Shown here piece by piece: positions 28,890 to 30,711 of a stretch of DNA of 64,000 nucleotides. A program made the position numbers and the translations under genes. Numbering within the stretch: position 1 is the stretch's first letter; each line of letters starts with the position of its first letter. Origin of the DNA: Sulfurimonas sp. (GTDB lineage Bacteria; Campylobacterota; Campylobacteria; Campylobacterales; Sulfurimonadaceae); assembly GCF_041583195.1 (NCBI RefSeq), contig NZ_JBFHGL010000012.1:1-64000 (forward strand), read 5' to 3'. The notes beneath the pieces are model-generated. The model saw only the letters and a list, made by a program, of their open reading frames with translations. It was not told where the DNA came from and did not search any database.

Positions 28890-29021
28890 ATACCAATATT
28901 ATAAATCAAAATTAAAAAAACTAATAGAACGATCATGCATATTACTTGCCTAATTCTACAAAATTTAAATATGGAATTTTATTCTATGCATATATTGTAA
29001 TTTAGTTTATAATATTGGTAT
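28890..29021. promoter_or_regulatory. Divergent promoters with a shared 16-bp inverted repeat
   Basis: ATACCAATATTATAAA (28890-28905) and its exact reverse complement (29006-29021) flank 100 bases. Each arm contains an outward TATAAT -10 box and the expected start point. One arm serves the cupin gene (minus), the other the cyclophilin-like gene (plus). Identical sequence over both start sites suggests one regulator acting on both, with the nearby AraC protein the first candidate. Perfect identity is seen; the regulator is inferred. Confidence 0.6.
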
Positions 29022-29085
29022 GTTTAAATTTATACTTATTATATTACTTACATTGAATTTAATTGCCGACATAAAAGGAGATATT

Positions 29086-29433
29086 ATGAAAATTTCTATT
29101 GAGTCAAATGGAGAGGTTACTATATTTGAACTAAATAATTCAAATGCTTCAAAAGATCTTCTGGCTCAGCTGCCTATGAATATTGAAGTTGAAAACTATA
29201 GCCATAATGAGAAGATCTTTTATCCTCCAAAAAAATTATCTACATCAAACACACCAATGGCTAATGCTAAAAATGGAACTCTAGCTTATTATGCACCTTG
29301 GGGAGATGTAGTTATGTTCTATAAAGATTTTGGTAGTGTAAGCGGACTGTACGAGCTTGGCAGATGTATTGAAAACTGTGAAAACATAAAAAATATGTCA
29401 GGTATTATAGAGATAAAGGTTCTTAAAAAATAA
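29086..29433 (+). CDS. Cyclophilin-like fold protein
   Basis: A 115-residue protein of the cyclophilin-like family (Cyclophil_like): IESNGEVTIFELNNSNASKDLLAQLP, then YYAPWGDVVMFYKDFG and GLYELGRCIENCENIKNMSG. Function is unknown; such genes often sit beside AraC regulators and oxidoreductases. The frame is open from an ATG at 29020, which would add a signal-like stretch, but that ATG lies at the predicted transcription start (-10 box at 29008-29013). The ATG at 29086 has AAAAGGAG five bases upstream and is preferred. A degraded copy of its 3' end lies at 30204-30274. Confidence 0.75.
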   Translation: MKISIESNGEVTIFELNNSNASKDLLAQLPMNIEVENYSHNEKIFYPPKKLSTSNTPMANAKNGTLAYYAPWGDVVMFYKDFGSVSGLYELGRCIENCENIKNMSGIIEIKVLKK

Positions 29434-29480
29434 GTAATATTTATATCTTTTAAAGCTTTATATATATAAAATTTCACACT

Positions 29481-29555
29481 TTAGCCAAACTTGTTGTGAA
29501 GCAAGGACGGAAAGCTATGGGTCTTTGACTAGATAAAGATTGCCAGGTTGCATAT
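29481..29555 (+). promoter_or_regulatory. GEMM-I type cyclic-dinucleotide riboswitch aptamer
   Basis: The segment has the ordered motifs of the c-di-GMP-I (GEMM) aptamer. CAAAC (29486-29490) leads into a 6-bp hairpin with a GTGA (GNRA) loop (29490-29505), then GGACGGAAAGC (29505-29515), GGGTCT (29519-29524), a second stem-loop (GGTCTTT / AAAGATTGCC), and GCCAGGTTGC (29542-29551). The family consensus has GACGCAAAGC and GCCxGGTT at these places. It lies between the cyclophilin-like gene and the coiled-coil membrane protein gene, which it should control. The ligand-choosing base (G20 versus A20 in Vc2 numbering) cannot be aligned safely by eye, so c-di-GMP and cGAMP both remain possible. Confidence 0.82.
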
Positions 29556-29634
29556 TTTACTTTCAAAATTAATTTGCTCCACCTAACAATTATTTATTAA
29601 GCCGATGAACTCAAAAATTACAGAAGGACATAAC

Positions 29635-30192
29635 TTGAGTTTGTTGCATCGTGTTGCTAATGTGGTATTTTCATTCTTATTAACTTTTTTATATATTTTA
29701 GTTTCAATCTTTGATCGTGGACGATTGAACTTTGATAAGTGGGATCAAAATGTTACTAGCATTTCCCTTGTGCTATTTTTCTTGCTATTGTTTATTTTAA
29801 ATTTAGATCTAAGACAAGATAAATTGGGTATTGATGATAAATTAGAAGATATAGATAAGAATAAAAATTTAAAAAAACAATGGACTGAGTTAATAGATCT
29901 AAAAAATAGTCTTGAAACATCTATAAAAAAAAGTGTTAGCAGAGAAAGCTATTTAAATGATAAAAGAGCAAGGCTTTTTGAAAAAATTGAAAAGGCTAAA
30001 AAAAACATATCAATAGGAATGCAAGCAAAAGCTAAAGCTAAAGCTATTCTAGAGCACTATAATTTAAGGTTAGAAAAAATAGATAAAGAAATAAACAGTC
30101 TTGGTCCTGAAATATCAGAAAAAAGAGCTCAACTAGATGTTGTATATAATAAAATAAACTTAATTGAAAGAGGCAACAACAGAATGAATTAG
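29635..30192 (+). CDS. Membrane-anchored coiled-coil protein under riboswitch control
   Basis: An unrecognised protein of 185 residues: two membrane segments (about residues 8-30 and 40-60 from this start), then a long, highly charged coiled coil (DDKLEDIDKNK to the end). No enzymatic motif. The ATG at 29605 lacks an SD; the in-frame TTG at 29635 has AGAAGGA six bases upstream, so I prefer TTG (the ATG form would add ten residues). It is the first gene after the GEMM-I aptamer and stands alone, so it is the likely cyclic-dinucleotide-regulated output. Such outputs often serve surface or motility functions, but nothing here shows which. Confidence 0.65.
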   Translation: MSLLHRVANVVFSFLLTFLYILVSIFDRGRLNFDKWDQNVTSISLVLFFLLLFILNLDLRQDKLGIDDKLEDIDKNKNLKKQWTELIDLKNSLETSIKKSVSRESYLNDKRARLFEKIEKAKKNISIGMQAKAKAKAILEHYNLRLEKIDKEINSLGPEISEKRAQLDVVYNKINLIERGNNRMN

Positions 30193-30203
30193 AACTCTAA
30201 GTG

Positions 30204-30274
30204 CTTGAAAATTGTATAGATGGTTGTGAGAGCATTAAAATATCTCTGGAATAATAGAGATTAAAGCAGATTAA
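30204..30274 (+). pseudogene. Remnant of the 3' end of a second cyclophilin-like gene
   Basis: Translation in two frames gives LENCIDGCESIK and then NISGIIEIKAD before a stop. This matches the C-terminus of the intact gene ending at 29433 (RCIENCENIKNMSGIIEIKVLKK). One frameshift and no start remain. The riboswitch and coiled-coil gene therefore lie between an intact copy and a 3' fragment of the same gene, as after a partial tandem duplication or insertion. Confidence 0.6.
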
Positions 30275-30711
30275 ATCTTATCAAGTGAGTTGTGTACTTT
30301 TTGAAGCAGTCTTAAGAACTCTTTTTCTTCATCTTTTTTTAGATCTTTAGCAAGCTCATTATTTATATATCCTGTATATTTGATGATCTCTGTCATCAAC
30401 TCTATTCCTTCATCAGTTAGGACAAGTTTTTTCTTTCGTTTGTCCTCTTCAGATCTAACTCTTTTTATATAACCTTTTGCTTCAAGTCTGTCTAAAATCC
30501 TTGTAATACTTGCTTCATCTCCGTATGTGTTTTTTAACATCTCTTTTTGAGTTGAAATATTGTTTTTATACATATTCATCAAAATACTAAACTGCAGGTG
30601 AGTTAAATTGTACGGTTTTAACAGCTGTTCTATTGATCTTTTTATAAATACGGTAATGCTTGTAAAGTGGAACCCTAATGATTCTTGTATATTAAATTCT
30701 TTATTTTCCAT
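30271..30711 (-). CDS. MarR-family transcriptional regulator
   Basis: A 146-residue winged-helix regulator. The DNA-binding part is THLQFSILMNMYKNNISTQKEMLKNTYGDEASITRILDRLEAKGYIKRVRSEEDKRKKKLVLTDEG, a standard MarR pattern with the wing at RSEEDKRKK. It acts as a dimer and usually represses its own gene and a divergent one. The divergent SDR gene lies 99 bases away, and two near-identical palindromes lie between, fitting autoregulation. Its stop region overlaps the cyclophilin-like remnant. Confidence 0.92.
   Translation of the reverse strand: MENKEFNIQESLGFHFTSITVFIKRSIEQLLKPYNLTHLQFSILMNMYKNNISTQKEMLKNTYGDEASITRILDRLEAKGYIKRVRSEEDKRKKKLVLTDEGIELMTEIIKYTGYINNELAKDLKKDEEKEFLRLLQKVHNSLDKI

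Follow-up and report, generated by a model that had tools for sequence, protein, structure and literature searches.

The closest described systems to the locus examined here are Vc2 of Vibrio cholerae, the type aptamer of GEMM-Ia (RF01051), the pilM riboswitch of Geobacter metallireducens, a GEMM-Ib cGAMP ON switch whose terminator is formed by the aptamer's 3' strand and a downstream strand (PMC9262584), and Cd1 of Clostridioides difficile (PMC9262584). Selectivity for c-di-GMP versus cGAMP is guided by the base at position 20 (PMC9262584, PMC6274999). Here, we compare these with a riboswitch in a 64,000-nucleotide stretch of Sulfurimonas sp. DNA (the window, meaning the whole stretch analysed). 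We read it as a c-di-GMP-I riboswitch that controls a single gene, for a membrane coiled-coil protein, and most likely acts as an ON switch; for this reading we claim somewhat better than even confidence. The features concerned are the following:

29465-29470, plus strand: probable -10 element TATAAA, which places the predicted start of transcription near 29477, at the 5' edge of the aptamer
29474-29555, plus strand: c-di-GMP-I (GEMM-I) aptamer, Rfam RF01051, 57.8 bits, 22 of 22 consensus pairs
29484, plus strand: G, the ligand-selecting base and equivalent of Vc2 G20, at Rfam model position 11 in the cmscan alignment
29511, plus strand: A, equivalent of A47 in the cmscan alignment, by the numbering of the Vc2 structure
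29551, plus strand: C, equivalent of C92 in the cmscan alignment and expected partner of the ligand's second guanine
29532-29553, plus strand: A strand, made up of C92 and the 3' strands of P2 and P3; it pairs either within the aptamer or with the H strand
29574-29599, plus strand: H strand, the anti-aptamer strand of the expression platform, UUGCUCCACCUAACAAUUAUUUAUUA, with a U-rich end
29622-29628, plus strand: Shine-Dalgarno sequence AGAAGGA, from the sequence
29635-30192, plus strand: regulated gene with a TTG start, encoding 185 aa with two transmembrane helices followed by a long coiled-coil hairpin

A cmscan search of the whole window returned a single riboswitch match, to RF01051 at 29474-29555 (+) with an E-value of 1.1e-8, which is complete over model positions 1-87 and lies above the family's curated gathering score of 35 bits. 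A first-pass annotation made from the letters alone had recognized ordered GEMM-I motifs upstream of a gene and proposed this covariance search as the check; the motifs are indeed present in that order, and the full-length match bears the assignment out. The left edge that it gave, 29481, falls 7 bases short of the 29474 given by cmscan. The free minimum-energy fold of 29474-29555 (-15.5 kcal/mol) is identical to the Rfam consensus structure, with all 22 pairs of P1b, P2, and P3 being standard. Judged by its sequence, 29474-29555 is a genuine c-di-GMP-I class RNA sensor that was correctly named at first reading. The likeness to Vc2 extends to the complete model match, the conserved junction, a GNRA-type P2 loop (GUGA in the window), and equivalents of G20, A47, and C92. 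It differs from Vc2 in its short P3, its weak P1, and its first P1b pair, which is C-G rather than G-C with a compensating change (CC/GG). The P1 pair nearest the pocket is A-A, and thus P1 is weak or absent in the window aptamer. With Cd1 it shares the lack of a clear P1 by the pocket as well as the c-di-GMP ligand, which is predicted here.

The first-pass annotation had left the ligand-choosing base unread. RF01051 model position 11 corresponds to G20 in the numbering of the Vc2 structure, which was checked against the consensus AAaGGCAAAc, and 29511 corresponds to A47 in the same numbering. The base at position 20 can now be read as G (29484), and therefore the aptamer is predicted from its sequence to bind c-di-GMP rather than 3',3'-cGAMP. 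The opposite assignment has some grounds, since one Rfam family takes in both kinds of GEMM-I ligand and cGAMP aptamers were at first annotated as c-di-GMP aptamers (PMC9262584). However, GEMM-Ib aptamers carry A20, where 29484 is G, and A20 occurs in only 3 of 168 Campylobacterota aptamers, all from other species, which makes cGAMP sensing at this locus highly improbable. G20 is found in 165 of the same 168 aptamers and C92 in 164. RF01051 aptamers with the cGAMP-type base are found in three genomes of the genus, ~360-465 nt ahead of rpsB, and the intervening DNA contains no long ORF:

G421:C263:5958-6038, minus strand: A20 aptamer L195, RF01051
G472:C174:3116-3197, minus strand: A20 aptamer L196, RF01051
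G437:C34:213-295, plus strand: A20 aptamer L198, RF01051

The G472 and G437 aptamers are followed by a strand that is complementary to the aptamer's 3' part and has a U tract at its end. GGDEF domains were readable in two of the A20 genomes, and at the position of the Ser of Hypr enzymes every one has the ordinary Asp.

The aptamer lies in the 5' leader of a gene of the same orientation, whose start is 80 nt further downstream. The true start is TTG at 29635, not ATG at 29605, because the paralogue described below aligns from the TTG in both protein and DNA, which gives a product of 185 residues. As the first-pass annotation had stated, the switch precedes a single gene, as the next one (MarR type, 30271-30711) lies on the opposite strand. 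The two-helix membrane coiled-coil product that it described is likewise supported by the sequence and by an AlphaFold2 model (two sequences; pLDDT 78.7, pTM 0.49), which shows two transmembrane helices and a long helical hairpin. No Pfam or NCBIfam match was found above cut-offs, Foldseek against the PDB returned only generic coiled coils (best E 0.1), a pattern scan of the genome contigs gave no relative, and among 134 other genomes of the genus there was no clear relative, only two generic coiled-coil matches. From the company that the c-di-GMP-I class keeps, we infer that the product would be an envelope-anchored coiled-coil protein made at high c-di-GMP. It should be noted that a cyclophilin-like gene lies at 29020-29433 and that 30194-30264 (+) is a decayed, frameshifted remnant of its 3' end (71% identity), and so the riboswitch-gene cassette is flanked by an intact and a broken cyclophilin-like copy.

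The genome contains three c-di-GMP-I aptamers in total. The second (C1:330532-330613) stands before a paralogue of the window gene (G000:C1:330692-331282) whose protein is 60% identical to the window gene product over the aligned part. Homology between the two cassettes spans 29424-30211 at 74.6% identity overall, with 86% upstream (29424-29473), 91% in the aptamer, 66% in the leader, and 72% in the coding region. Because 29424-29473 is this similar between the two paralogous leaders, TATAAA at 29465-29470 is a probable -10 element; it was absent from the output of a consensus scan. The paralogues differ at 50% of their synonymous sites (dS 0.82, dN 0.25, dN/dS about 0.3). With the aptamer at 91% identity against this synonymous change, both the aptamer and the protein have been kept since the duplication. 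Judging from these alignments, the unit of promoter, aptamer, leader, and gene was duplicated and afterwards retained under selection. The A-A pair in P1, the decayed gene remnant adjoining the cassette, and the failure to find a relative of the gene outside its own genome are what one might expect of a degraded, non-functional relic, but a relic is hard to reconcile with the conservation of the aptamer beyond that of synonymous sites and with purifying selection on the gene, and we regard it as very unlikely. The third aptamer, L133 (G000:C4:165049-165130), lies upstream of a 129-aa secreted, outer-membrane-like protein, and look-alikes of this protein stand behind aptamers in G403 and G440.

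For the window cassette, we propose a mechanism in which transcription would start just 5' of the aptamer, which would be the first structure to fold. c-di-GMP held between G20 (29484) and C92 (29551) would let the aptamer retain its own 3' strand. Without ligand, 29532-29553 would instead pair with the leader strand 29574-29599 once this is transcribed, and the resulting long hairpin with its U-rich end would terminate transcription ahead of 29635 or silence the leader in some other way. The predicted folds follow this order, as the aptamer is the best fold up to 29555, while in a transcript to 29600 the alternative fold is better by 6.7 kcal/mol. For the leader to 29615, the alternative fold lies 11.1 kcal/mol below the aptamer fold, compared with 4.9 +/- 2.9 for shuffled leaders, and the observed energy gap was reached by 2.75% of shuffles for the window, 8.75% for the C1 copy, and 2.5% for the C4 copy. 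By duplex energy alone, the window pairing is unremarkable for an A+T-rich leader (z -0.4). Because this score was not significant, we added the refolding test above and a leader-swap test over 164 leaders. Aptamer 3' strands pair better with their own leaders than with those of others (0 of 10000 permutations), and the window's own pairing ranks within the best 3%. When permuted within genera, the preference persists (p 0.008), and three controls in this test, namely reversed leaders, upstream flanks, and further downstream DNA, were flat. The mutually exclusive pairing is better than chance, with statistical support across the phylum and moderate support for the window. The H-strand pairing also has an equivalent in the C1 paralogue, where it is retained despite a different 3' strand (CAAUC AUCUAUU vs CAAUU AUUUAUU), which is consistent, if weak, evidence of constraint.

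This arrangement resembles pilM, in that a downstream strand is complementary to the aptamer's 3' strand, including the ligand-pairing C, and the predicted hairpin excludes the aptamer. It differs from pilM in its predicted c-di-GMP ligand, and its hairpin is weaker, A+T-rich, and lacks a clear U tract. A terminator consensus scan found none in the window leader. The G-containing stem is followed by the 8 bases AUUUAUUA, and the U run, UUAUUUAUU, lies partly inside the stem, so that termination by the alternative hairpin is no more than plausible in the window. Over the whole leader set, U is slightly enriched after the H strand, counted from the junction base (3.7 vs 3.1 U in 8), and no clear enrichment of a U tract was seen at the far end of the duplex. 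In several relatives the pairing strand ends in U runs (e.g. G442:C16, G491:C17, G387:C11:91176). We also considered translational masking by the H strand and rejected it, as the aptamer-constrained fold contains no pairing of this strand with the Shine-Dalgarno sequence.

The output could run in the other direction, with ligand binding causing the ribosome site or start codon to be masked in an OFF or translational switch. There is precedent within the class, as Cd1 is an OFF switch and Vc2 has been described as one that acts on translation (PMC9262584), and the UUG start of the window gene sits in a hairpin (AACUCAA/UUGAGUU). However, this hairpin is present whether the leader takes the aptamer fold or the alternative one, and it is absent from the leader of the C1 paralogue. 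Cd1 also uses a separate terminator hairpin, unlike the platform predicted here. Thus, we consider an OFF or translational switch possible but rather unlikely and favor the ON switch, for which the two paralogous leaders provide a natural pair for testing the platform.

The first-pass annotation had named no well-studied GEMM-I example in this phylum. The assignment is supported by the RF01051 match and by our phylum survey, but such an aptamer is nothing exceptional: of 397 genomes sampled evenly from the Campylobacterota, 43 have the class (up to 10 per genome), as do 49 of 135 genomes of the genus, compared with 0 of 14 control genomes. Since the class is common and phylum-wide, the window switch is a further example of a known switch and no surprise in kind, and the c-di-GMP-I class is now firmly placed in the Campylobacterota. 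A simple pattern count of P1b pairs in the phylum gave CC/GG, the commonest form, in 106 aptamers, CT/AG in 15, and GC/GC in 2; this compensated variation supports the aptamer structure in the phylum. By exact pattern, the same subtype was also found in Desulfobacterota, gammaproteobacterial methanotrophs, and others. The first genes downstream, judged by eye from their sequences with profile scans covering some, mostly encode predicted lipoproteins, very large surface proteins, pilin, PAS/MCP-type sensors, and small outer-membrane-like proteins. Our search of the open-access literature, with most subscription papers outside its scope, found no paper on c-di-GMP riboswitches in Campylobacterota, and these may already be present in automatic annotations.

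The genome encodes 62 GGDEF domains and has a single weak PilZ match. The first-pass annotation had viewed the coiled-coil protein as an output of the many c-di-GMP enzymes nearby, and this neighborhood argument carries little force: of the 62 GGDEF domains, 4 fall within the window, against an expectation of about 1.7 by length, and c-di-GMP diffuses, so closeness to the gene means little. We therefore dismissed such clustering as evidence. What the survey does offer is a list of candidate direct targets of c-di-GMP that can be put to the test, in a genus where GGDEF enzymes number in the dozens; the present genome is nearly devoid of PilZ receptors. As a tentative suggestion, more doubtful than not, riboswitches might be a main c-di-GMP read-out of Sulfurimonas-type Campylobacterota, with pilM-like ON platforms placed before fast-evolving, lineage-specific envelope proteins like the one described here and with the few A20 species perhaps reading another dinucleotide.

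Two aptamers of the survey score at or below threshold, L048 (G191:C1:2211659-2211731, 35 bits) and G329:C46:26067-26139 (30.8 bits), and are possibly degenerate or variant. There were also two instances of tandem c-di-GMP-I aptamers in a single leader, L129 (G396:C1:96505-96724) and L109 (G225:C1:356375-356583), with the aptamers ~70 nt or less apart.
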